Under the pieces are notes generated by a model, which worked only from the letters and a program-made list of their open reading frames with translations, did not search any database and had not been told where the DNA came from. Of a stretch of DNA of 28,039 nucleotides, positions 2,781-25,470 are shown piece by piece. The stretch covers positions 26,707 to 54,745 of the forward strand of contig NW_003111976.1 of the NCBI RefSeq assembly GCF_000003605.2. The letters run 5' to 3'. The first letter of the stretch is position 1, and the number at the start of each line of letters is the position of its first letter. This DNA is from Saccoglossus kowalevskii. Its lineage: Eukaryota; Hemichordata; Enteropneusta; Harrimaniidae. The position numbers and the translations under genes are program-made.

Positions 2781-4616
2781 AACTATGGGCGAAATTATTT
2801 TCTGATTTTCCCTAATAACTAGGGTGAAGGTGTGACCTACATGCTAAGTTTGAGCGAAACCGGCTAAGCCAAACAAATTTATATGTGAAAACACTGGAAA
2901 TCACACACAGACACACACAGTGTAAATTGCAAGTGCTTGTATACAAATAAAATTTACACTTTAAGGGCAATCGTAGTGGAGCGGATGGCCAATACATGTT
3001 CATTTGCATATTGACCGTGAAAATACCAAAAACATTATTGCATTGGTGATATGCAAATTAGTTTTAATCAAAATAAGTGATTGCCTAGAAGTTCCATTAC
3101 TGTTGTTCAAATTTCATTTCACTCGGCAAGTATATTCATGTACCCAAGGGTAAAATAGTGTACTTCTAAATATTGTTTATTTCTGCTATGTTTCGAAAAA
3201 CGTTACTCTTGAAAGGACTACTTTGTTTGCTCTTAGACCTCATTTGCATATAGGGTGTGGTAATACCGATTTTGATTTCAAGGACGAATCAAAATAAACT
3301 ACAGTACATATGTAATAATGTGGAATACATTCTCAATATAAACATTTTTCCGCTAAAATAAATTCCAGTGAAAATTTCCCTCATACTCTATTGAGACTTG
3401 ACACAGCACAGTGAAAATTGGATTCACACGTAATGCTTAAAAACATTTCATCGAAAATAAATTAAGTGTAATTCTATGTGACTTTATGAGAGTTGGAAAT
3501 GAACAAATTATATGAAACCCAACCCTACCACTCCATACACAATGTAAACTACACACCCAAAACATCCTTTCACCAGTGTATTCTATTTGACTTCAGGAGA
3601 AATTGAAATAAACAAATTATATGACAACGAACCTAATTATAATTTCAGCCTCTAGTTCAGCACTGATTAAATAAACTACTTCGTCTTCATGCCAACTGGA
3701 AGTTATTCAATGCCTACATCAGTGACTTCAAAATCTATTTCAATCCCAGGAATTTCACTTGTTATGATTGCATGGGAGTGCCAGTCTTTTATTTTCTATT
3801 GTAATGTCAATTTCTTTCGATTACTCGGAACATGAAGCTGTAACCACAGACCGTCTAGGTAAAACCTGGTGTAAGCACCGGTTAGGCAGTCTTAAACTAT
3901 GCATGTGAAGCCAGCTGAGAGGTATATCCAATCCTATAGATTTCTCATTGTTTGGTAACTATTTGCTGCAAATGCAACAAAAATCAATATAAAAATATTA
4001 CCCACACAGCATTCTACAGGTTACTTATTATATTAGTATGAAATCTAGTAGCTTCGCGATGAGTGGTTAACAAATCAGTGGCTTTGGTGATGAGTTGTTT
4101 TATCAGTGAGTAGCTTTCATTGTCACTGGTCATAGGAATTGAGGATTAATGTTTTACGTGTCATGAACAATTGGTGTTAATGTATGAACACCGTCTTTAG
4201 AAACTGTTAATTTGTCTTTATGATTTGTGCTGTCGCTCTGGCAGGAGTTCCTAAATAACTGCTTAGTGACATATAACCATGTTCCATGTACTATTTTAAC
4301 ATGAGTATTTTATAATTAAATGACGGGGACTGTGATATTAATGTCTTGTTTTGTATTAATTTTAAACATAATTGTATGCGTCTATTGATGTATTATTCAG
4401 CATCAAAATAAACCTACATACTGCATGGCTCAAACTTTGATATTTTTGGCGAAACAAATTGTGTGCCATTGTGTGCAAACAATTTCGGTTTCATTGTTCT
4501 TGGATTTGAATATGTGAATTGATTTCTGATTTTGGATCACTGTTGTATGGTCAAAATGGTTCCAAGTTGTGCCTGAAGAACTGGGATAATAAAATTGGAC
4601 TTTTGTTTATTTGCAG

Positions 4617-7445
4617 TCAAACAATTATGTGACCATGTTACATGGCTCATTGAATTATTACGCGATAGTTATATCAACCATTTTGCAAGAATGCGTCCTC
4701 TACCTTGGAACGAAAACTTGTCACTTGATCTCTGCGATATCTTCACAGAACTAGAAATCATAACGGTATGTAATGATAGAAGAATACACAAGAGAGGTAC
4801 AGTAATGAATCCTTTGGACATATTCAACAAGCCAGAAGACTCAGTGTACAATTGTAGACGAATTAAAGTTGAGGGTCCTCCTGCAATTGGGAAATCAGTA
4901 TTTTGTAGAAAGTTAGCTTATGATTGGGCTTGTGACAGACTAGATCAATTCAATTTTCTTTTTCTAATTGAATTCAGACAGGTTGTAGGCCACAATACAA
5001 TCGAAGATATCATTTTCGAGCAACTTCTTCCAGACCAGCCGTGTATATCAAAAAATCAGTTGAGAGATGCCCTTACTCAACAGTCTAAGTCAACTTTGTA
5101 TGTACTAGATGCTCTGGATGAAATGGGCCCGAAAATGAAATCTGCAAAAGATCACAGTATATGCAAATTGATTCACAAGAAGCTATTACCATGGTGTACA
5201 GTGGTTACGACAACACGACCACATGAATGTGACAGACAATTGAGTGAGTGTGATTCTCATTTCCGTATCAAAGGTTTTACCCTGAAACGAGTATGTGATT
5301 ATATTATGAAATATTTTGTGGGACACAGTGATAAAGCCATCAAACTAATTAAGAAACTCTCAACGCAATTAAACCTACCAAACTATGTAGTTGACTATGT
5401 TTCAAATTGTTACACAACAAGTGACGATTATGAGAGTATACAGGATTGTTTGGATTTTGTTCATGACACACTGTGTAATCCCCTACATGTTTCATTCCTG
5501 TGTTTAATTTGGGAAGATCACCAGGATGGTGATCCATTTCCTGAGGACATCACCCAATTATATGGTGAAATACTCGATTGTGTTCTCAACAGAGCCTGTG
5601 CTAAGCAGGACCCAGAATTCATTGCCGGTGAATATCCACCTGAAGTAATTACTGCTTTGGATGCTCTTAAGGAACTAGCATTCAAGTCATATAAATCAAA
5701 TAATATGATGATAAACGAAAATGATATTTCTAATTCAATATTGTCACTGGGGTTACTTGTTAGAGACACTGGTATTTCTAGAACTAAACCTAGAAAGCTC
5801 TGCTATTTTTATCATAAAACGTGGCGTGAATACTTCACTGCATTGTATGTTAGGAAGCACGCACATGACAGAATGATATCTAAATGGCTGAAAAATACCT
5901 TCAGTGCTCTATTCGATCGCCACGATCGTATGTTTTCATTTGTTTTTGGTTGTCATAAAGGCAATGCTAGTCATTTAGTGAACAGTGAAGACAATGCTAT
6001 TCATCTTCTGAAGATAATGGGTGATGTTTACTTAGATTCACTAGATGAAAACGATCCATATAATATATTATCCAAAAGCTTGGAATATCTAAGGAAGAGT
6101 CAATATGATACAGAGTTCCTGGTGTGTATATCTGAATGGATGCCATGGAACATTGATTGTCTTTCAACTTGTAATTTTCGTATTTTATTAACACTTGAAT
6201 TCGGGAACAACAAGGCCCCACATTCCACTGTTTATGCTTCAGTTAACTTCAGTGAGGAACTTGTATATCTGATTAATTACCGATTATGTAAAGGAATTGA
6301 AAATTCACCCAGTTCCACTCGTAAGCTTATTCTAAAAATTGCCCCTGATCACATGATAGAATTTGAAGATGTTTTCTGGAGTTGTTTGGCATCTTTGTCA
6401 GCTTATGGTTCATTTGTGTTTGATTTTAGTTGATCGTTGGATATCTTCAAGCAGCGTGCCAAACAGTTTGTTGCTTTAGAAGAGATTTGTATGTTTGATA
6501 TTTTTGTTGAGGGCGGTAGTGTGCAAAGGATGGCTCAATTTTATCATGGAAACACATGTTCGTTGACTAAAACACAACATTCGAGGCAGTTTTTATTGTA
6601 TTTTATTCTTGTTAGAATTGATTAACAATATTTGTCTAAATGAGCTTCATATTTCCCATGATTGTATGCAATGTGGAGGACAAGGAAAAAAACTGTTTAT
6701 TAAGTTTACCCAAGCATTATGTACTTACATACTTAATCTTGATGTAAGCTATGACTGTGACAACATACCACAGTCGTGTTACAATACTATATTGCATGTA
6801 ATACACAGTCAGATCAAATCAACAAGGTCTGTTACATTGAGATCATTGAGGTGTGCAAGTTACCTTATGTATTACATGGATATCGAATCATGTTTCGAGC
6901 AGCTGCAAACTGAATATGAAGACCCCTATACCTTTGACATGCTAGTATCTTTGATATTGCATGTTGCCGATTCGACAATGGTAGATGCAATGTACCTCCA
7001 ATTACTTCTGTACAGATTTAGAAAGCTACATTTCCTTACACTCAATATTCACGCAAATAATCAAAGTGTATCAATGTCGGAAATTGTTAAAGCAATTAAA
7101 ATGAGTCCTGGAAAATACTCACTCAATTACCAAATAATCTCCGATATCAAGGAGGCATTTCTTGCTGCAGCTAACTACTTTATACCAGCTGTTACTATAT
7201 TATTTCTTAAATGCCAGTCAAAACTTAAAACGTTTTCAATAAGTGAAGTATCTACACGTAATGACTGTCTGGAAATTCGATACTTGTTAGAACAATGGAA
7301 TAACTTTGGTAACATTTGGCGGTACCAAGTGCAAACAGTCAGTCTTCTTTTACCACCTACTAAGCATACACAGTTATACGAGCACAAAATTCTGACCAGG
7401 GTCAAAGTTGGTGATTCCTCGTTGTTGACATATTTATATGACTAG
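4617..7445 (+). CDS. NACHT-domain NLR-like protein, 5' exons missing, C-terminal half interrupted
   Basis: Splice acceptor TTTGTTTATTTGCAG ends at 4616, so the exon opens at 4617 in phase 1 (two bases complete a codon). The frame runs to TGA at 6431-6433, about 605 residues. It shows an NLR pre-NACHT stretch (LRPLPW-like, then DIFTELE), Walker A GPPAIGKS (4874-4897), Walker B LDALDEMG (about 5105-5128), a TTTRP sensor, NPLHVSFLC, and the winged-helix signature YHKTWREYF (about 5811-5837), all typical of invertebrate NLRs. The same frame continues after the TGA to 6625, then a +1 frame (open from 6567) runs to TAG at 7443-7445 with leucine-rich, LRR-like spacing. NLRs are cytosolic NTPase receptors that oligomerise on sensing ligand. 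The N-terminal effector domain was not found. The gene may encode a truncated protein, be a pseudogene, or splice out 6252-6615. Confidence 0.8.
6252..6615 (+). other. Candidate intron or decayed segment in the NLR
   Basis: The segment contains the in-frame TGA (6431-6433) and the point where the frame changes. A donor-like A|GTGAGG at 6252 falls after codon base 1, and a strong acceptor (pyrimidine-rich TTTTATTCTTGTTAG) ends at 6615, also phase 1. Removing the 364 nt restores one frame from 4617 to 7445, with AAA at the junction. Another phase-1 donor, GTAAAG at 6288, would create TAA at the junction. Against an intron, the translation inside the segment looks protein-like. Transcript data would decide. 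Confidence 0.4.
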
Positions 7446-7451
7446 AAGGCG

Positions 7452-7605
7452 CTAAAGCGGGAGGGTCGTCATCTGCGCACGCGTCACAAGCAACGATAAA
7501 ACACACGCTAAAAACGCAAAGACTCGTGGGTAGACACTTGTTTGTGAACAATGACGCGCTATGGCCATCTGACGCATGCGCAGGTGACGACTCCCCTCTC
7601 TTTAA
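7452..7605. mobile_element. MITE copy 1 (TTAA-flanked terminal inverted repeats)
   Basis: The left end TAAAGCGGGAGGGTCGTC and the reverse complement of the right end (TTAAAGAGAGGGGAGTCGTC) match over about 35 bp, including the following CTGCGCAYGCGTCA block. The right end is flanked by TTAA and the left by its mutated form CTAA. At about 154 bp it has no coding capacity, so it is a non-autonomous DNA transposon. The copy at 15371-15526 matches it in the same orientation. The TTAA target fits the piggyBac superfamily, but that assignment is tentative because the tips do not start with CCC. Confidence 0.8.
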
Positions 7606-10558: not shown

Positions 10559-11016
10559 GGCAGATCGAGCTGAATACAAAATTTTTATTGATGCATAAGT
10601 GTGCAATGAAATATTATTATTTGACTTATTCCTCTTATTAAATTAACCGATAGTATTGAATGCATGGAATAGATGATATATAACCTTAACTTGGTCTAAA
10701 CCCTCTAAAACAACAATCTTTATAATGAGGATATTTCAATGCAAACACAAAACATTCAACTTCTAAACTTCCAGAAATGTTCGTATTTTTCATTTGGTTT
10801 TTTCCCCTCAATTTAAGCAATAGTTTTATTGGATTGAGCAAAAATTGAAAGCAGTACTGCACAGCAAACAACATTCAGGAACTTATGTTTGAGAAAAAAC
10901 TAGTTCAACAATTCTCGGTGATAATATATAAATACATGTATGTCACTACATTGTATTATCATTATTCTAATAGTATTATATGTTTGATTGAGAACCTCTA
11001 AACTCATAACTATTTT
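10559..11016. other. 3' flank of the DED-HECT gene
   Basis: AT-rich sequence without a coding frame. It contains the candidate minus-strand polyadenylation hexamer at 10825-10830 and otherwise nothing I recognise. Confidence 0.5.
10825..10830 (-). terminator. Candidate polyadenylation signal of the DED-HECT gene
   Basis: Minus-strand AATAAA (plus-strand TTTATT) about 190 bp downstream of the stop codon at 11017-11019, a normal distance for a 3' UTR. Identified by position only. Confidence 0.4.
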
Positions 11017-14000
11017 CTAGATATTTCCAAAGAATTTTTTAGAAAATGCAGTATCATATAATTGAAACATTTTGTCAGAGGAAAGTAGCGGTATGTTTAG
11101 AGTTGCTCTTGGCAACGACAAGCAATTTATGCACGTGTTTGCGGTTGGTATAAAAGTTGATGTTACGTCAACGAATTCTATTGACGGTGCAATGCTGAAT
11201 CCTAAGACAGGCTCTTCGTCTGCCCCCGTTACAAACTGAAGGACGTCTGAAAGTGATATAGAATCTCTTCTGCCGCCTGCAAAAATAAATGGATATTACA
11301 AACCACGTTCAATGTATGGCTCGCACAAGCGTCCAAAGCAACACTGCCTACTTATAGTGTGCGCTACTATTCACACAGCTACTGTCTGGACGCCTTCATA
11401 CTCGAGACTATTAGCAATTAGTATTCCAAATGATTATATGATATGTTTGTAATAAGTATAACTCAAATATTTCACTCTCTTTTCACACACTATTCTCTTT
11501 AAACTTACTTGCAACGTCTCTAAGGTATTTCAAAAATACACCATACACAGCGCCCTCCAGTCTCCTGCTATTTGAACCGTCCTCACTGAAAGATGGCGTC
11601 AACAGTGATCTTAACTTTCTGAATGTCATAGCACTTGATGGATTTGGTTGAAGAAGGGACGCAAATGCGGGAATCGATTTACTGAGCTATAAATCAAACA
11701 GAATTATCATTTAATTGTACACATTAAATACACATACATCACGATCGATAACTTAATTGCATTATACATAATAGTTATGTAGATGATCCAGGGTCATGTT
11801 AAGACCTTTTTGGAAAATCCGTGACTTACACCTATCACATTTTATTGTACATACGGTGTATAGTTATTATGCAGTTGCAAATCAATTTCCTAAATTGTTA
11901 TATAGCTACATGTGATAATACCATTGGGTGCCTACCTGATATATTCCTATTTTACTCAGACCCTCACGTAGCTTAATTATGCATGGAGAAGGGTCACTGC
12001 TGATAAGTAGTTCATGGCGTACACCATCTGACATAAAGCGAGGAATTTTTCCATTTTGAAAAATGCTGAGACCTGTAGTATTAAATACTTCTCATTACAG
12101 ACAGACCTGGTGTATATGGGATTTACAACGTGAAATGTGAAGATATAGAGGAACTCAAGGTTACATGCCAAACGTCTTGACACCACCTGATTGATACATG
12201 AAATATGCCAGCTGTAGTGGTAAATCCTTACCCACCTAGTTGTAAACTGGATAAATCAAATGAATCAATCGGGTATGTAACTCGTAAGTATAAATACATA
12301 TACCACATTTGCTAGCTACTATACAACAGAAGAATGTGTTAGCAATATATTTCAATTGAATTACAGTAGTGATTTATGGCACTCACCACAATTATGACTT
12401 GTGCTATGATATGGTGTGTTACCATGATAATTGGTATACATAGAAATTAACTTCATGTCGACAAAACCAACAATAATGAGCCAAGCTACAAACTAACAAC
12501 GAAATCAATGACACCATCTTACACATAACAACACCAACTGTTGAATAATCATCCGCCAAATGCTCTCTCAGGCCATGGTCAAAATATTTAACCTTTATTT
12601 CTTGTAACACATTAGTAAAAAATTCTTTTCGTGGCCCACCATAGTCCTTTGCCTTCTGCAAAAAATAAATAAACACGACACATATACAAATTGTATTGTA
12701 TGTGATTTATTATGAGCCACTCTTAAAACCGTTCAAACCAAGATTGTAATTGTCATATATCATGATTCTATAGTTCACATAGTCTTACCTCGCCATAAAA
12801 ATCGACTTCAAGGGTTTTGCGCAGATCCCGTGATGAAAGAATGCTAACTTCATCAAGTGCTGTTTCCAATAGGTTAAACCTGTCAACGATGATATACGAT
12901 GTGTCTCCTTCACTATATTCATTTATGTTTTCTACTTCCAATGGTCTACCAATCATAACCTTTGATTGGAAATAGCGGAGAATTTCAACCGGATTTGATA
13001 TATTTTTTTCTTCACAATACGTCACCGTTTCCTTTACTATTTCATCAACAAATATATCCCCGTTTTCCTCTTTGTCTATAACAATATCTGTTGTCATATG
13101 TGACGCAGACTGAAAAAAAAAATACAGACGAAAGATCAGAATAGAAATTTATATTCCCTTCCAAATGTAATGTATGTAAGTATAACTGAATTGTAGATAC
13201 CTGAGTTTCTTCTACAGCTGTCGCCACCTGGCTTTGCTGATGAATTTCCACACTCTCGCGTGTACCACGATCGTCAGTTTCTTGACATAGCGCATGTCTA
13301 CCACTCTCTTCGAAGGGTCTACTTGGGGATTCTACCACTTCTATAGTACCAAAATATCGATATATAGACAGTTTATATGTTATCAACAAACTTCGTGTTG
13401 TCCTATGGATAACACTTTCTAAATACACTTAACCGTAGAATGTGCAATTAAGGATGTTCCCATGATATAATTCAATGGATGTGGACGGCGAATGCTTGTA
13501 TATATGCTGCTTCATAGTTTAAGCAAAAAGTGCAAAATTGATTTAAAATAAAACATTGGTTTCAAATTACAAATATGCGTTTTGGTAGAGGGTAAAGTAT
13601 TGTAACACATGGCACATGATAGGGCTGTCACTTGATATTTCCATAGAGAGGTACATTTTTCATTTATTTCAATATATTGTTATTATGAAGCATATCATTA
13701 ATAATGTATATATATCTGATTATACTACCTTAATATTCTATAAAAACATTAAAACCATGTTACCTGTTTTTCCTTTTTCATGATATTTTTGTAGTTTTTG
13801 TGCCAGTTTCTTCAGGGCAATAGCCTCCAATGCTTTCTCCAAAAACAGAGTGTTATCTCTTGTGATGTTTCCCTGATCATGCAGTGTTCTGAATAAATCA
13901 AACGGATGTTCAATGCTTTCCAAAGTTCTTCCTGGTATAACACTAACACAGCGACGCATCATGTCTTTTGTATGACCTACGAAAAACAGTACGAGGACAG

Positions 14001-16148
14001 TTACAACTACAAGATATTGGTACATTATTACCCGTGCGTACCAGTAAATTTTGTTGCCCGCAATCATCGGATATTTGTGTAATTCAAAAGTCACATTAGC
14101 CATCAATACTATGTGCTCTCCTTTGTTTATATGTCATCGCCTGGCAATCGGCTGGACTGAGGAAATAAGCTATATATAGCAGTTTAGGAACTTGTTTAAG
14201 ACGAAATCAAATTCTTGAATGAGGTTTGCTGCATATGTCGGTTGGCATTTGTGTCGCTTACACTGGGGCAATGAGCGCGCGTCTGCCTTAAGCTGTAGAT
14301 GCAGGTTCGTGAGCACGTTGTGAAAGAAACTGGCGACATGAAGTATTAAACACTACTGTATCTATGCCAATATATTCATACTTAACAGCACATTGAACAT
14401 ATATATATTATATTATATTATTATATTATATATATATAATAGGCGGTGTCCTATTCGAAATTCTATGGAATGATTGATTAGTCCGGGGTCCATTCTTTTA
14501 TTACGCATATTAAATGGTCATGCAAATAAACAATTATCTCAGTTGGCCCAGGAAGTGCAAATCTAAACAGCTCTCATAATTGTTTATTTCACGTGAAACT
14601 TTTTTCAATAGTTAACAAAGTAGGGTCCGATAAAAAGCGGTGCAAACGACAATTCAGTTTGATTTATTGGCCGTAATGTATTATTTTGTTTACAGAATAT
14701 ATTAATATTTAATAATCAAAGATAAATTATCGAAGTCAATTCGAAATTAATTCGCATTTTAAGAAAAACTACTGTAAACTACTGTTTCATTCAACCGCAG
14801 ACGAGACGGTTGATAAAAATGGCATCGCAGATGATTAAAACAACATCTCGTTGCCAATTTTGATGTTATTTTCGTGATTTTATGTTTGTGTATTTTGACA
14901 CTGAAAAGTATCTTGCTATTCATTACAATGTTATCAACTGGCAATGTACAGTTATGTTGTGTAAAAAGCTTATTTTAGTATCGTTCACAATGCAAAAAAA
15001 AACACAAAAAAACTCTGAACTCTATCTACCAAAAGAACAAAAGAAATATTGACCACTTTATTTCCTGTACGCGAAAATAAATAAAAATAAAAGTATTTCA
15101 CAGTATGCGACTGGAAGATGTCAGACTAGAAGTTGTTCACATGTTCATGAAATAAGGGTTTAATACGTTTATTTATCATTTAAAATGTATAGTTTTCGTG
15201 TGTTTTGTCTTTTTCCACTACGCATTGCATGCTGACACCGTCTACCTCTAGTTGATCGCACTTGAGATAAGTAAAATAGGGAGCCAGGACAAACCACCAC
15301 ACGCACTGATGCACATATCATCAACAGTAACTTGTCAATCAAAGAGGAACGAAACAAACTCTCGGGATATTTAAAGCGCGAGGGTCGTCACCTGTGCACT
15401 CGCGGGAATTGAGTCCCAAGCGACAATAACAACACACGCTAAAAACGCAAAGGCTCATGGGTAGACGCATATTTGTAAACAAAGACACGCTATGGTCATG
15501 CGCAGGTGACGACTCCCTCTCTTTAATTACATACGCTTACCTCGGTTACTAAATTTTAAATTTGTTTAGTATGCTCCACAATTGGTAAGCTCTGAAATGT
15601 TGATAGTCTCTAACCAAGTACCCACGAACCTACATCTTTACCTTAATTTGCATAAGACCGCCAATCATTTGACATAATTTCGAATAGGTCGCCGCCTTTG
15701 CGAGCACTCATAATTACACGTTTGTCTAATGTTTGATGTGATTGTTAATTTGGATATTAAGTTTGCGTGGGGGTATTTCCTTGTAGAATCAGTAAGTCCA
15801 CGTAATGTCAGCGCTACTTAACGATAAGTACATAACCAACACTGACAATGGAGTGTGACCCAGTGAATTCTGTACAAGTAGTGGCAACACGCAATAAATA
15901 ATAGTTATGTAAACCACACCCATGGAATTTAGTGAGGCAAATGGTGGCTGTTCAGACATAGCGTCATCAACAACAACACAAGCGTGATTGTAGCCTAAAT
16001 CATTTACGGGCCATGTGTCTCGCTTTTCCGGGGAGTTATCATTGCACAGTTAATTGTGTCACTTACTTTCTGTCATATCCATAGCAACGTCGTTCAGAAG
16101 CTCGTAAAACGGGTCAAATTCGTATGAAGCGTTCCTCAAGGCAGCCAT
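11017..16148 (-). CDS. DED-HECT protein: FADD-like death effector domain joined to a G2E3-like HECT ubiquitin ligase
   Basis: Eight exons: 16067-16148, 13764-13976, 13201-13340, 12789-13109, 12523-12655, 11936-12072, 11509-11686, 11017-11276. Every boundary is GT-AG and junction phases agree (1,1,0,0,1,0,1), giving 487 residues ending in TAG. The start ATG at 16148 lies in CAAGATGG and is the only ATG in the open frame. Residues about 9-95 form a DED: FDPFYELLNDV as in the FADD start, then VIPGRTLESI, DLFRTLHDQG and DNTLFLEKAL. Residues 100-145 are a charged linker. From about 185 a G2E3-like HECT follows: GRPLEVEN, LEVDFYGE, KDYGGPRKEFF, KYFDHGLRE, SIFQNGKIPRF, VTGADEEPVLGFS, and NTCINCLSLPR with the predicted catalytic Cys at 450. 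HECT enzymes pass ubiquitin from an E2 through a cysteine thioester; DEDs assemble homotypically in apoptotic and immune complexes. No transmembrane segment is visible, so it is probably cytosolic. A transcript is needed for confirmation. Confidence 0.9.
14397..14442. repeat. AT-only simple repeat
   Basis: Irregular ATATAT/TATTATAT run of about 46 bp, intronic. Confidence 0.8.
15371..15526. mobile_element. MITE copy 3, TTAA target duplication intact
   Basis: The left end TTAAAGCGCGAGGGTCGTCA and the reverse complement of the right end (TTAAAGAGAGGGAGTCGTCA) form a terminal inverted repeat, with perfect TTAA at both ends (15371-15374, 15523-15526). The interior shares ACACACGCTAAAAACGCAAA with copy 1, and the two differ by small indels. 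It sits in intron 1 of the DED-HECT gene and is non-coding. Confidence 0.8.
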
Positions 16149-16970: not shown

Positions 16971-17829
16971 TGGAAGGTAGTCGATTATTCCAGGTGAGAG
17001 TGCTCAATACTAAACGATGAGTTTGTAGAGCAGATTTACATACGTGGACAGAGAAATTAAGACACGACTACATGAGTAAAGTTCACTCTACAGTACTGTT
17101 TCGTAAGGTACATGGAGTACCTCACTCATCAGGAGTTAAGACTTAAGTTAAGTACCTTATATATATACATGTATATATATATAAGACATTCCAACATATA
17201 AGACATTTGTCACCATATCTGGGTCAGAATCACATGTATTTTATTGTCAGGTATAACGCACCACGTATCAGCAAATCATATGAGCAGATTCGCGCTAAGC
17301 AAGTTATGATGTTTAATATAGTAAACATACAATGTTACTCAATCGACATTAACAGTCATAAACAGTGGAATGAAATGTTCAATAATGCACAAACATATAA
17401 GAGACTACTGATAGAGCCTTGTTTGTTTAACAGAGTACAAGATATTAATGTCAATATTAACTGACATAACTTACTTGGCTTGTCCTCTCCTAGTAGACCG
17501 TTGCGCCATGTCACTTAGAAGCAGTGACTGTTACTCGTCACAACGATGACGCTCCACATCACGATTGGAGGACATAACTCTATCCTTTGGTCACCCGACA
17601 TGCAAAAAGGGCTTTTTAGTCTGTGTAAAATACTAAGCATGTCGGCAATATTGTTTCTTTCTGGGTATATTTGATAGACACGTAGCAAGTACCACAATTT
17701 TTACACGATTCGCATGCTATACGTGTATCTTTAGTATTTCATTTGTGCCAAATCATTGGAAATTCACTTTAGCAAATTATATTCCAATGTACTACATGGA
17801 CGAGTCTTTGTCGTGTTTCTTTACGTTAT
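16245..17829. other. Intergenic, repeat-rich, no supported gene
   Basis: Short frames at 16285-16491, 16529-16726 and 17207-17464 lack motifs and splice support. The stretch includes a CA/TA microsatellite (about 16932-16970) and a palindromic TATATACATGTATATA block (about 17158-17182). It also has a direct pair of ATATAAGACATT words near 17180-17205, and a segment around 17075-17150 that resembles dispersed repeats I cannot name. Confidence 0.45.
16932..16970. repeat. (CA)n(TA)n microsatellite
   Basis: Seven or so CA units run directly into about twelve TA units. Confidence 0.9.
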
Positions 17830-18263
17830 TGTTTATTAACAATTCGGAAAGTCATCACCAGGACAATCCAGACATTTATAAACTCTTGCCTACGAAGAAT
17901 ATTAAGAATATGGTATCCAGATGTGATCACAAACCATGAGTTATGGGAAAGAACAAATCAGCAGCCCATAAAACAGGAAATACTACAGAGACGCTGGCGA
18001 TGGCTAGGACACACCCTTCGAAAACCAACCCAAAACATCACAAGGTCGGCACTCAGCTGGAACCCACAGGGCAAACGGAAACGGGGCCGTCCAAGAAGTA
18101 CCTGACGACGGGGCCTAGAGGCTAATGTCCGGAAGTTGGGCTATACCTGGAGGGAAGTGGAGCGTCTGGCACAAGACCGGCCTGGTTGGAGAAATCTTGT
18201 TGATGGCCTATGTCCCAGGAGAGACGATAGGCATAAGTAAGTATGTAAGTAAGTAACAATTGG
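17830..18263 (+). mobile_element. 5'-truncated RTE-like LINE, reverse-transcriptase C-terminus
   Basis: One plus frame reads [19 protein letters not shown], then [28 protein letters not shown], and ends GWRNLVDGLCPRRDD before TAA at 18238-18240. This series is characteristic of the C-terminal tail of non-LTR reverse transcriptase polyproteins of the RTE type. The tryptophan codon expected after GRPRST is TGA (about 18103-18105), so the copy is dead. The coding end is followed by a (GTAA)n-like tail to about 18257, as expected at a LINE 3' end. The 5' limit is approximate and the clade is tentative. Confidence 0.75.
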
Positions 18264-19447: not shown

Positions 19448-19744
19448 TCAAATGCTATTAAATATAATCAAAGTTATTACAAGGATACCGCAAAGTATGC
19501 ACTCAGACAGTACGCCGTCGCTGCGCGTCGTTCCATACTTCCGCTGTACTGTCTTCGTGCATTCTTGTCGGTATCCTCGCAATAACAATAACCTCATATT
19601 ACAACTTGAGTATTTGATCCATGAATAGACAATAGGGTTATAACAGGAAGACAACATTACGTTCTTGAACACATAAAATCCAAATCTCTTGTACACATAT
19701 TCAGTCCTATATTGACTCAGAATCCGGCTGCAGGATATTGTATA
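19448..19744 (-). pseudogene. Class A GPCR TM7 / C-terminus-like fragment
   Basis: The minus frame contains FGFYVFKNVMLSSC followed by YNPIVYSW and a basic, leucine-rich helix-8-like stretch (MRLLLLRGYRQ), ending in a stop at 19448. NPxxY at the end of a hydrophobic segment, followed directly by a short basic helix, is the hallmark of rhodopsin-family TM7. The frame is closed on its 5' side by TAA at 19745-19747. The same frame further upstream is hydrophobic but shows no clear CWxP. I found no TM1-TM5 or DRY motif, so it is probably a remnant. A last exon of a spliced gene is the alternative. Confidence 0.45.
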
Positions 19745-20054: not shown

Positions 20055-20718
20055 ACTGTAGTAGGCATAGTAATCTCTATATTTGTAGGTGTAACCAGTG
20101 TCGTTGGTTCTTACGTGTATAAGAAAAAATATATCGTATTATATTTATCAGGTGATAATCCCTTTGAAGCCAAAGTCATCTTTTGTCGAAAAAAAAAACC
20201 CACGTACATGTTTCAAAAGATCTGTAGCCAATACAATACACTATGTCCATTTGGTTCAAAGTTCTAATAAAAACATATAAATATTGGCAATACGTTGCAC
20301 CGACATTTAGTCGGGAACAATTATGCCACCAAATGGTTAACATAAACGCGAGTAATCTATACTAGTGTATATGTATCCACAAGTTCTATACTCAGTCTAT
20401 TACTGTAATATTGGAATGTGTGTGCTAGCATAATCTAACCATGCTATAAAGACAGGGACGAGGGATACTCTATATGTAGCCTAGCTCATCTCAACAATGA
20501 TCGCTATTCGTGGAATATTCCTATAAAATAAACATATTGACTGGAATTTGTGTAATCACATAACAAACACTCAACTAACTTCCATGTTTCTTAAAAGTTA
20601 ACACATCTAACATCGCAGACACTCAATCCAGTAGCTGATCTGGTACATTTATACGTTAAATGTGTATCCTCGTAAATGAATCAATATGCATGTATCACAC
20701 CAACGGGATTATACCAAC

Positions 20719-20928
20719 CTGCACATACAGGAAACTTAAAGCTCCACTGGCCATCACTTAGGCAGGTTATAACACGTTCTCCAGTCAACACATACCCCTT
20801 AACACAGGAAAATGTGATGTAGTCGCCAGGATAGTAATTTTCAGCGCAAGATAGTGACGGACTCATTATACGATTTTCATCCAAGTATAGTATTGTACAC
20901 ACTGTGACGTCATTTGTCACTGGAATGG
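20719..20928 (-). CDS. CCP/sushi domain exon, intact
   Basis: Acceptor ATTCTCAACAG ends at 20929 and donor GCAG|GTTGG follows 20719. The exon is 210 nt, phase 1 at both ends, with no stop. The translation has the four sushi cysteines in order (VTVC, ITFSC, RVITC, FPVC) with the expected GYVLTG and DGQW between the third region and the last cysteine. An extra cysteine lies in SLSC. Sushi modules are extracellular protein-binding domains, common in complement and adhesion proteins. It is the most downstream recognised exon of the minus-strand SRCR-WSC-CUB-CCP locus. Confidence 0.8.
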
Positions 20929-21298
20929 CTGTTGAGAATAAGAGATGTGTCATTGATTGCTTTCACGGGAAAGAAAACGTAACAGAGGATAAATTATCAT
21001 GATATGTCTGCAAACACGTGCAGGCTATATCACTCCAATATTGAGTGTTCTAAACAACAAACATTTCTAAACCACCGCCAAAAACGTCGGAGATATGTGC
21101 TATATCATGGTAAATTTGAGATGAGATTTTTCAAAGAAACTGCGCGCTTAAGATTATATAATATAAACAATAATATAAAAGACGAAGATAAAATCTGAAC
21201 ATTTGTTGTATAAAATATACGGTTAGTAGATATTATTTATAAATAACGTTTGTTAGATTTTAAATATTGTTTAAAAAATTTGTAAAACGGACACCCAC

Positions 21299-21623
21299 AT
21301 TTATATTTCGCAAAGAGTCCGTAGTCTCGATCACCTTCTATTTAATTCATCCACAGCATGTTGGATGAACTGTTGACTTTAATTTCGTCTCCTATATAGT
21401 TCCCATGATATATCGTTGACGCTGTATCATCTCCACCATCTCGAACTTGCAGACTACCCAAAAAAACTATAAATAATATATACGACATCAAGTTCTATGA
21501 TATGATCTTCAGCGGTAGTTATTATCCACACACAGTTTTGTTGTTTGTTTATACCGGGGAAGTTTGGTGAGTAGATGTAACCACAGCGATCCGTCAGATT
21601 CCTACTGCATGCTCCTACTGTTG
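21299..21623 (-). pseudogene. CUB domain exon with frame change and stop
   Basis: Acceptor TATCTTCACAG ends at 21624; donor AAAT|GTGGGT follows 21299. The first half reads ACSRNLTDRCGYIYSPNFPG, CVWIITTAEDHIIELDV, typical of CUB. It then hits TAG just after a run of seven T. The second half resumes in another frame as SLQVRDGGDDT, SSSNMLWMN, then TAA, then YGLFAKY, the usual CUB ending. Exon length (325 nt) is incompatible with the phase-1/phase-1 frame, confirming an indel. The central stretch with the usual CxxD pair also seems deleted. Confidence 0.75.
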
Positions 21624-22960
21624 CTGTGAAGATATAATTTATGAAGATATGTATCACGTAAATGTTTCATCCAATCACGTCATAAATATCACAAAAATGT
21701 ATGTTCGTATTAGGCTTAGATGAGTATATGTGTATACATTTATACGTTGTTTCTGTACTAGATCTTATATTTGACTTGTGCCTTAACAACTAGTCATTTT
21801 GAGACGGCATTTGGAGGTGTTCATTTGTAGGGCAGTGGGTGTTGCGCAACGAGGATTACGTCTGCCTACAGTGGCACAGCGCCAAGGTGCGCTGTTTTAA
21901 TGTATGTCTCGTTGTTTGCCTTTACTTGCAATTGTACAAATATATACAATAGATATCGTCTAGAAAAGCGGTTCAGCACTTTCCATTTTACATTACTGCC
22001 AATGGCCGATCAAAGTGCGTTGAAAATTGTTGCTGTGAACGATATGTTACCAAACCAGTATATAATAAATACATTTTACAAATCTGTTACTGTGAAAATA
22101 CGTATGCGTAAGTGTTTAAATTTTCATAGCTAAGACTGGCATAATGGTCTATGAAAGTTGTCTTATTAGCTTTTCTATCCAAGAAAACATATAATTAGAC
22201 ACCACAATTTTCAAAATCAGACCATTATAACAAATTTTATTAATTTGACCCTTCACGAAAAGTGTGTTGACTTTTCCACATTTTCGGCCATTGTGACGTA
22301 ACGCAAGGTAAACAAATATGTCAAGACAAGTAAATTGATATGCATCTGAAAACGATTGGATCATTTTTTAAATTTTGACCCCAAAATAAGGGCGTTTTGG
22401 CCCAAAAATGGCCGGAAAATGTTGGCATCGCCCCTGACCTGAAACCTTACTATATGAGGACTTGATCTAGCATAGATGCCTGCTTGTGACAAAAAATGCC
22501 GAAACAAGGAAACAAGTTGTTTTAAGCACTTTTCTATCTTCCGCTGACTGTCTTATGTATATGAAACGAAATATACACCGCAGTAATATGCCATTCTATA
22601 CATGCAATTACACATTATTTGGGGGGGGGCGGCAAACAATGACGTTGAACTACGGTCGTATTTATTTATTTTTTGTCAAATATTTCTTTATTCGTATCTT
22701 ATTACCATTATCCCACGAAGCATTTCAAGCAAAGTGTTTATTTAGTTTATGTCTTTAATTACACATGATTGAAACTGTGTAATTTTGCCATAAATTAAAT
22801 GGCTGGTTCATTAGCGCGTATCATATGGTTGATAGCCGCAAGAAGCTACAATTTATACTTACTTAAAATAATTAAATTAAATAATTAAACCTAAATCATC
22901 ATTGAGAGTACTGTCATCCTGTCTCATGAAAACCAGTGTTCTTTGAAATGTCATACTTAC

Positions 22961-23296
22961 TATCATAAATGTCCAGCTGATAGATTCCACCACATCCCTG
23001 CTGCGTATAAGGGTTGGTATCAGTATAACCACTACACTGTTCCGTACCGTATACATCCATGCCATTTATTAGTTCACCTGGAATAGCTTCTCCGTATCGA
23101 TCGTAGTCTGTATCATCATCACCACAGTAACATTCATTCCCACCGTAGAGGGCTGCAATAGCTTTACCTTTTTCCCGTCAAGTCCCAATGCATTCTGGGA
23201 TAGTGAGCTTATCTGTGGGTATGTCTTCTTTGCTTGAAGTAGGAAATATTCTCTCTGCTGTCAGACCCTCTTTAAAACGACCACGAAATCCAGGAA
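22961..23296 (-). pseudogene. WSC domain exon with lost cysteines and premature stop
   Basis: Acceptor TTTTCAACAG ends at 23297 and donor GATA|GTAAGTA follows 22961; 336 nt, phase 1 to phase 1. The translation fits a WSC carbohydrate-binding module: FRGRFKEG, RIFPTS, LTIPECIGT, stop, REKGKAIAAL, GGNECYCGDD, EQCSG, QGCGGIYQLDIY. The TGA at 23178-23180 stands where the family has the second cysteine of the CxxxC pair, and GRF stands where the family has GCF (a one-base TGT to CGT change). A functional WSC needs these disulfides, so the exon is probably non-functional. Confidence 0.75.
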
Positions 23297-24084
23297 CTGT
23301 TGAAAATAAATACACCATGTTGAAGGCGATGGTGTGCGGTCTGATGAGGTACTTGCATATATAGTGTTCGTATGGGTTAGTCCTGAGTTTAGTTGAGAAC
23401 AGTACTGTTAATGATTGCGATGTAAGAGCACGATCGAATTGATTATGCATTAAACTTGATATCACAGTATAATATAATTGGCCATATTTATTGACAATTT
23501 TCGTTTTCTCTTTTGTTTTATGACTTTATAACCAATATTCAGGATATTACTTACTATTACTTATAAACGTGTATGCGAGGCACCAGCAATAGGTGAAAAT
23601 CACGGTCAGGTGACCCGATTTCTCCAAAACCCCACCCCTTGGAGCGATATTAAAAAACACCCCTTATTAATATACAGTAGTTCATAATAATTGTAACACA
23701 TCATATGAAAACAGAAAAAATATCGATCCCATTGAATCCTGAATATGAGAAAAGGAACCCTTGACCATTGAAAATGTCAAAAAGAGACCTCATGCCCATT
23801 TTGAACCCCATGGATGCCTCGTTTACTCGTTGGTAAGTTTCAACAAGTGACCCCGACCTTTGGCGTGAATGGCCACTGAGATCTCGTTGAAACAAGAGAA
23901 ACACGAAACTTTGTTTCCTCCAATAGTAATAGATTATTTATATAAAACCCGAGGTGAACCGACCGGGTTAGGGTTCACGTTTACTCCAAACTCATATAGC
24001 TACGGTATGTAGTTGGATCAGTGGACATGATGGAAGTCCAAAGAATGGAAAACTATTTAAGGGCCAAAAACAAGTTCCGTGAAT

Positions 24085-24287
<203 letters not shown>

Positions 24288-24360
24288 TCAAACAGTGAAA
24301 ACTGTGTAAAACTATTTGTATTCAAACTGTCAATTGGGACAATTACTAACTACTGCTTAC

Positions 24361-24552
24361 AATAGCATGACACCAACGCTCTATCCATTTCAGAGCATGC
24401 GCAGGAGGTGTTATCGGATGTAACATGTATTTCACAGTCTTCCAGCGATTCTGCTGACGAATCACAGCTGATGTCACAGACGTTCACTTCAGTGAGATCA
24501 CTGTCAAAATAATCGATTTGCGACACAGACAACCACATGGCATCAACAAACC
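24361..24552 (-). CDS. SRCR domain, second exon
   Basis: Acceptor TTTCCAACTTTAG ends at 24553 and donor TATT|GTAAGC follows 24361; 192 nt, phase 1 at both ends, no stop. It continues the SRCR fold with GFVDAMWLS, NVCDISC, SAESLEDCE and CSEMDRALVSC, the usual C-terminal SRCR cysteines. Splicing to the upstream exon gives VCKQLGFVDA across the junction, the conserved SRCR core. Confidence 0.8.
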
Positions 24553-24725
24553 CTAAAGTTGGAAAAAAACAACATTTCAGTCTGTTAACATATACAACCA
24601 TTGGATTCGGGAGACTACATAGTTTTAAAATAAGACATGTAATGCTTATTTATCTCTGTCATTGACCATGGAAGGTACTAACAAATGGAATGACTCAATA
24701 AACCAAAATGAAAAATGAATATTAC

Positions 24726-24869
24726 CTAATTGTTTACACACGATTCTCGCTTCCATCCAGTTCCATCGGGAGCTATTAGTTGCACACACAAGTGCCCAGT
24801 CGCCGTTATCTATTCTTATTTCAACGTTTCCAACAAATGGCCTTAAACCACCATACAATCTAACATCGA
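24726..24869 (-). CDS. SRCR domain, first exon
   Basis: Acceptor TTTTTTTCAG ends at 24870 and donor TTAG|GTAATA follows 24726; 144 nt, phase 1 at both ends. It reads VRLYGGLRPFVGNVEIRI, GDWALVC, WNWMEARIVCKQL, the standard N-terminal half of a scavenger receptor cysteine-rich domain (VRL.GG, G.VE, W..VC, A.VVC.QLG). It is the most upstream exon I can assign to this locus; the 5' exons and signal peptide are not visible. Confidence 0.82.
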
Positions 24870-25196
24870 CTGAAAAAAACAATTTGTTGATAAGGTTACT
24901 CCGCGATAAATGAGTTAATTGAAGTAATTTCACGCCAGAACCAGAAATTTGGTATATAAATTCACAGTTATTGGTAAAGGTAATGACCATCCTTAGGGCA
25001 GGCAACAAATCGTGATATTGCGCTCACAAACATGTGTTATTATTTAACTAGTCACTGGTGATAGACGAGTTTCCCCCAAACTTACTAGGTGAAAGAATGT
25101 TATGAAAACCAGCCCAGAGAGGTTTTTAAGCGTTTCATGTACCGAAAAGGTAAAAAGTGCAAGATGGGATAAATCAGCACAAGTAAGCGGTAAGAT

Positions 25197-25197
<1 letters not shown>

Positions 25198-25288
<91 letters not shown>

Positions 25289-25329
25289 TTTGTTTGTTTG
25301 TTTGTTTGTTTGTTTATTTATTTATTTAT
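25198..25329. repeat. (TTTA)n microsatellite with internal (TTTG)n block
   Basis: About 130 bp of TTTA units interrupted by about six TTTG units near 25291-25313. Confidence 0.97.
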
Positions 25330-25470
25330 GAGAAATGTTGATCAGAATAGCCCACGGTGTGAAATGTATTTTTTTCTGGACAACACATTACAACACAAAT
25401 CTGAACATTTTGAATATCCGACCTTCTTAATGCTTTTACTTTCCGTTGAGTCAGTAATTGGAAACCTCTG

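Follow-up and report, generated by a model that had tools for sequence, protein, structure and literature searches.

Known systems recruit separate ubiquitin ligases to death effector domain (DED) complexes, and a locus in Saccoglossus kowalevskii raises the question of whether a DED and a HECT ubiquitin-ligase domain are encoded there by a single gene. The locus lies in a window of 28,039 nucleotides (C598:26707-54745, in an assembly of 572 Mb and 4,830 contigs), by which we mean the whole stretch of DNA that was analysed. A first-pass annotation had described eight minus-strand exons with GT-AG boundaries and agreeing phases that join a FADD-like DED to a HECT domain, and we reproduced this structure: the exons, running from 16148 to 11017, form a spliced coding sequence of 1,464 bases that encodes 487 residues and a stop, all introns are GT-AG, phases are consistent across the eight exons (with the end of exon 7 at 11509), and the ATG is preceded by an in-frame stop upstream. 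The eight-exon DED and HECT reading frame is thus confirmed in the window, and Pfam reported two families in the spliced protein at E≤1, the DED and the HECT, each above its curated cut-off. From the sequence we infer that exons 2 and 3 are joined in one mRNA. Our preferred reading, to which we assign a probability of about 50%, is that one gene encodes a 487-residue protein composed of a DED, a linker of 50-70 residues and a compact HECT domain in which the predicted catalytic cysteine is preserved, that the HECT domain comes from an integrase-linked family, and that the product would be a DED-docked ubiquitin regulator.

The DED is encoded by the first two exons. Exon 1 (16067..16148, minus strand) carries the start methionine and DED helix 1 (residues 1-27), as placed by splicing, phase and Pfam, with the in-frame stop 5′ of its ATG; exon 2 (13764..13976, minus strand) carries the remaining DED (residues 28-98) and was recovered in a whole-genome scan with PF01335 (E 5.7e-8 at C598:40483-40671). 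In the spliced protein PF01335 matched residues 14-94 over profile positions 1-81 of 82 (E 2.8e-13; 50.3 bits against a cut-off of 35.9). The annotation would have given up the fusion had exons 1-2 lacked a significant DED score; on their own they gave a Pfam E of 1.7e-14. FADD was the best solved-structure match of this DED (residues 12-90, E 6e-5) and likewise has its DED at the N-terminus; the window protein, however, has a HECT domain in place of the Death domain of FADD, and Pfam reported no Death domain in it at E≤1, which sets it outside the FADD family. An AlphaFold2 model of exon 2 alone, a piece from which helix 1 is absent, showed helices with a mean predicted local distance difference test score (pLDDT) of 76 and a predicted TM score of 0.44. 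DEDs are numerous in this genome, with 67 matches at E≤0.001, 52 above the cut-off and at least 87 at E≤10 (88 candidates scored). The closest other DED by E-value (C2396) is 31% identical, so the window DED has not been copied recently from any of the other DED genes found in this genome. Elsewhere in the genome, a DED (at 41312) is followed on one strand by a Death domain (at 38262) at C4134:38262-41551 (minus strand), likely the FADD of this genome, and six DED matches cluster within 20 kb at C129:186677-205867.

The HECT domain occupies the last five exons, all on the minus strand. Exon 4 (12789..13109; residues 146-252) opens the N-lobe, has an acceptor and phase that recur at C357 and C3354, and is matched by phmmer to AREL1 and E6AP. 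Exon 5 (12523..12655; residues 253-296) and exon 7 (11509..11686; residues 343-401, the end of the N-lobe) were placed by splicing, phase and genome copies, and exon 6 (11936..12072; residues 297-342), where full HECT domains have about 70-90 extra residues, by alignments and genome copies. Exon 8 (11017..11276) holds the C-lobe, the predicted catalytic Cys450 and the stop. The profile check that the annotation had proposed, with PF01335 and PF00632, placed both domains above their cut-offs; PF00632 matched residues 409-458 (E 7.8e-8; 32.7 bits against a cut-off of 23.9; profile positions 230-282 of 306), that is, the C-lobe only. Cys450 lies 37 residues from the C-terminal end, the same count as given earlier, and the cysteine and its surroundings are kept in 4/4 aligned C-lobes, that of the window among them. 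AREL1 aligned to the domain in two pieces (residues 218-268 and 409-458, E 1.3e-9), followed by E6AP, RSP5 and SMURF2, so that the start of the N-lobe and the C-lobe with its catalytic cysteine both align with AREL1 and E6AP; N-lobe similarity was found by phmmer to the HECT chains of AREL1, E6AP, RSP5, SMURF2 and NEDD4, and the N-lobe piece alone (residues 216-342) had no Pfam match. An AlphaFold2 model of exon 8 alone gave no usable structure (pLDDT 37). The earlier description of the domain as G2E3-like was not confirmed: G2E3 was absent among the best 60 of 63 PDB sequences, led by AREL1 and E6AP. G2E3 itself has PHD-type fingers ahead of its HECT domain, and none were reported by Pfam in the window protein, where the DED and HECT were the only families at E≤1; the protein thus falls outside the G2E3 family.

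The position of the two halves argues for a single gene. Both halves lie on one strand, with about 650 bases between the end of the DED exons and the downstream exon 4, and the number of DED exons expected by chance within 1 kb upstream of a mini-HECT copy on the same strand is 0.0002-0.0006 (from 52-87 DED matches and 5-8 mini-HECT copies). Between them, exon 3 (13201..13340, minus strand; residues 99-145) encodes a polar linker with no known domain (0 Pfam families), and in any one frame about 9% of the window's 140-base stretches are free of stops. Direct splicing of exon 2 to exon 4, with donor and acceptor unchanged, would break the frame. Taken with the profile scores and the phases, this position supports the annotation's proposal that a FADD-like DED is paired here with a HECT domain. 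Past the stop, a candidate polyadenylation signal AATAAA lies at a distance of 187 bases (10825..10830, minus strand), recognised by pattern only among 11 occurrences of AATAAA in 16148-10400.

We found that the HECT exons belong to a family. A genome search with residues 146-487 gave at least 40 matches; among those listed, 22 lie on eight contigs that carry what we call mini-HECT genes, and the other 18 are weaker matches to other HECT domains. The window contig (C598) and C357 have five mini-HECT matches each, C3354 four (at 1038-1041 kb), C2039 three, C4624 two, and C2678, C4704 and C2916 one each. The pieces on C357 tile the query near the cuts between exons 4-8, and the first HECT exon there equals exon 4 in acceptor, phase 0 and donor end; the first HECT exon on C3354 agrees with exon 4 at its start (acceptor, phase 0), with an in-frame stop codon just upstream. 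Since in both copies this exon opens at an acceptor without a start codon, a 5′ coding exon is needed. Exon 8 compared with C4704 over 85 codons gave a proportion of synonymous differences (pS) of 0.86 and of non-synonymous differences (pN) of 0.30, and exon 4 compared with C357 over 56 codons gave 0.74 and 0.33. Synonymous sites are near saturation and no ratio is therefore given; moderate pN beside near-saturated pS is a pattern of purifying change. We take the recurrence of the HECT exons with matching cuts and this pattern to be beyond chance.

The same comparison showed that the HECT domain is short in the middle of its N-lobe. Between the two aligned pieces there are 140 residues in the window protein versus 232 in AREL1 and 222 in E6AP, and alignment to L052, a single-frame HECT of the same genome (333 residues, Pfam profile positions 30-304), mapped the gap to residues 312-331, within exon 6. 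In the copy matches that span this stretch (C357, C4624, C2039 and C3354), codons equal query residues in 4/4, and without a net length change in any copy the short N-lobe is a family trait. A missed exon was ruled out as the reason, given that the gap lies inside exon 6 and the copies have the same net length. HECT domains are about 350 residues long, with the interface for the ubiquitin-loaded conjugating enzyme (E2~ubiquitin) on the N-lobe (PMC9547173). At about 270 residues (218-487) the window domain falls short of a bilobal HECT of about 350 and, with its short N-lobe, is classed as HECT-like by sequence rather than as a proven HECT ligase.

Several HECT places in the genome lie on short contigs together with an integrase core domain, rva_4 (PF24764), for which a genome scan gave 59 matches on 41 contigs (78 candidates scored). 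We picked 24 HECT places by hand, leaving out 15 other HECT contigs and the second of the HECT genes on C3354, and none of those left out lies on an integrase contig of that scan. An integrase was found within 20 kb of 13/24 places, and all 13 pairs are convergent, that is, tail-to-tail; the 13 comprise three mini-HECT copies (C2678, C2916 and C4704) and ten other HECT places. Distances between HECT and integrase are 1-4 kb except at C4704, where they are 15 kb apart with tandem arrays between. Some of these places are not independent of one another: members of one family share 91-99% identity across kilobases and are possibly haplotype duplicates, the two places on C4815 form a 1,737-base, 100% inverted repeat that may be an assembly artefact, the HECT match of C3977 is weak (E 0.087), and the mini-HECT match of C2916 contains two stops. 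The pair at C1648 has inverted arrays on either side (3020-3295 and 7464-7536 of L051). The HECT genes convergent with rva_4 integrases (L042, L046, L047, L051, L053 and others) have the appearance of a mobile-element family, and long tandem arrays with several readings open lie between or beside the HECT and integrase genes of L048 (C4704) and L040/L041. The window HECT probably comes from this transposon-linked family; the copy in the window differs in having a DED and in that no integrase was found beside it.

Several observations weigh against our preferred reading, and the closest to the joint itself is that exon 2, if read on, meets a stop after 8 codons, followed by AATAAA at 13668, which makes a DED-only transcript possible. 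In the genome, among the matches listed, a second DED-mini-HECT pairing was not reported: the seven other mini-HECT contigs carry none of the listed DED matches (at least 87, E≤10), and ahead of the HECT no DED was found in about 2.6 kb at C357 and none was visible in about 1 kb at C3354. The same seven contigs (C357, C3354, C2039, C4624, C2678, C2916 and C4704) also have no Death domain among 82 matches of a genome scan. An unlikely explanation that accommodates these points is that two transcription units lie side by side, a DED-only gene made of exons 1-2 with the run-on and a mini-HECT gene or element remnant made of exons 3-8, with the agreement of frame being luck. An early methionine in exon 4 (residue 150) fits such an arrangement, as do two weak inverted-repeat pairs of 24 bases each (8825-8848/13349-13372, 75%; 7634-7657/13739-13762, 71%) that flank exons 3-8 and exclude the DED exons. 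Equally weak pairs, however, occur in 2/3 control stretches (13 pairs in the window stretch versus 0, 3 and 8 in three controls of equal length), so the enclosing pairs are not read as element ends and were ruled out as such. Two separate units would also leave to chance the consistent phases and GT-AG boundaries over all eight exons and the open 140 bases of exon 3, they fit poorly with the acceptor, rather than a start codon, that opens the first HECT exon in two copies, and six integrase pieces had no match in the window (nothing at E≤1 by tblastn against the window and L054-L058).

The remaining objections concern what a fused protein would do and where its HECT half came from. The charged triad RxDL and the FADD-type hydrophobic patch are interface features of DEDs, though they are not kept in every DED; in the alignment with FADD, Phe25 corresponds to Arg and RxDL to LKKL. 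The triad is kept in 3/8 other DEDs of the genome (L002, L003 and L004) and lost in 5/8, including the best-scoring one (L001), so its loss is not unusual here and, taken alone, would still be compatible with docking. On the HECT side, the mid N-lobe is shorter than that of E6AP by 82 residues and that of AREL1 by 92, and a real possibility, although not one we favour, is that the fusion exists but its HECT domain is no ligase and, without the E2-binding stretch, would bind ubiquitin or substrates as a decoy and keep DEDs from assembling. The short mid N-lobe shared by 4/4 copy matches and the N-lobe piece without a Pfam match agree with a decoy, whereas the catalytic cysteine and its surroundings, retained in every aligned C-lobe, and the non-synonymous change in exon 8, far below the synonymous, are features that a pure decoy might not need. 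As to origin, no integrase lies within 20 kb of 11/24 HECT places (the window, C357, C3354, C2039, C4624, C289, C1174, C1407, C4547, C1775 and C2070), and 29/41 integrase contigs have no HECT place of the 24-place set within that distance, as against 12/41 that do. Quite improbable, in our judgement, is that the HECT half is a relic of a mobile element, young or in decay, which was accidentally spliced to a DED gene and has no host role. Damaged-looking copies would suit it, with the reading frame broken in an A homopolymer at C357 (possibly an assembly error) and in-frame stops at C2039, as would inverted repeats in intron 1 that resemble other elements; the window copy is nonetheless open across five HECT exons, and an integrase remnant was neither found in the window nor reported on C598 by the PF24764 scan.

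Known systems offer partial parallels. ITCH, a HECT ligase, reportedly acts on the DED protein c-FLIP, and the window protein would likewise turn HECT activity on DED proteins; there the two are separate chains, whereas here both domains would lie in one. Compared with AREL1 and E6AP, the window protein has the shortened N-lobe described above and a DED in front. Vertebrates have host-transposase fusion genes, which are alike in that a host domain is spliced to coding exons of a mobile element, and differ in that the element contributes a transposase rather than an accessory HECT. Animal DEDs are joined to TRADD-N and many effector domains (PMC8195603); in passages of that paper HECT is mentioned once, beside SPRY-like proteins, and no DED-HECT protein appears. 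A mussel survey lists 22 HECT genes (PMC11353290) and nowhere uses the words "death" or "DED". Among papers naming both "death effector domain" and "HECT domain", none presents a DED-HECT protein in its title or the start of its abstract, although UniProt or InterPro may already list predicted ones, and searches on G2E3 and on HECT with transposon terms returned no matching paper. No close relatives were found in the viral_contigs, genome_contigs and phages collections; none of these is an animal collection, and the search is therefore no test of the fusion in animals.

The rest of the window holds further genes and repeats. A NACHT reading frame of 618 residues (4577-6433, plus strand; E 9.2e-24) marks an NLR-like gene on the opposite strand beside the DED-HECT gene; the NLR link suggested by the annotation is thus borne out as proximity and not as a functional tie. 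Downstream of it lies a 292-residue frame (6567-7445) with no family above cut-off. Intron 1 contains, within 14288-15697, inverted repeats with the look of small DNA elements (14441-14476/15662-15697, 83%; 15368-15398/15499-15529, 81%), the second of which is connected with 7453-7592 by a match that both have in L054. A plus-strand frame at 17773-18105 resembles the tail of a long interspersed nuclear element reverse transcriptase. An inverted repeat with arms of 41 bases (83%) and 32 bases between them occupies 19473-19586, and 19464-19605 matches DNA of L043-L045 at 69%. Exon-like frames with Sushi, CUB, SRCR and weak WSC matches (20681-25023, minus strand) probably belong to secreted or receptor genes; the flank L055 contains DNA resembling the Sushi and CUB frames. 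Tetranucleotide arrays with repeated CLSV/RQTD and LFIY frames lie at about 24050-24320 and 25190-25340.

Under our preferred reading, a mini-HECT gene of the mobile-element kind would have landed downstream of host DED exons and been spliced to them with the frame kept, although the direction may be the reverse, with elements having taken up a host HECT. The DED would dock on other DED proteins, which are numerous in this genome, and the FADD-like DED and Death pair of C4134 could be such a partner; the HECT domain would then mark or bind ubiquitin on the DED assembly and so limit or tune death or immune signalling. The first-pass annotation had the protein bring E3 activity directly into a death-effector complex, which is possible but weaker than claimed, with an N-lobe 82-92 residues short and Phe25 and RxDL not kept. 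The missing stretch is perhaps the E2-binding subdomain, judging from the anatomy of E6AP, and since the usual E2-binding stretch is apparently missing, the ligase step would call for an unconventional way of contacting an E2 or for a second ligase as partner. The kept cysteine and the purifying pattern argue for chemistry, and the lost part of the N-lobe argues for a non-standard or partner-dependent step. We tentatively suggest, at somewhat less than even confidence, that a host DED gene acquired a ubiquitin-ligase gene carried by a transposon, yielding a one-chain death-effector ubiquitin regulator, and that the source elements, in which HECT and integrase genes stand tail-to-tail, may themselves benefit from ubiquitin transfer. 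If true, DED docking and ubiquitin chemistry would be combined in a single protein, the locus would let one trace how an accessory gene of a mobile element entered cell-death wiring, and HECT-carrying integrase elements would be a possible source of new ligase genes.

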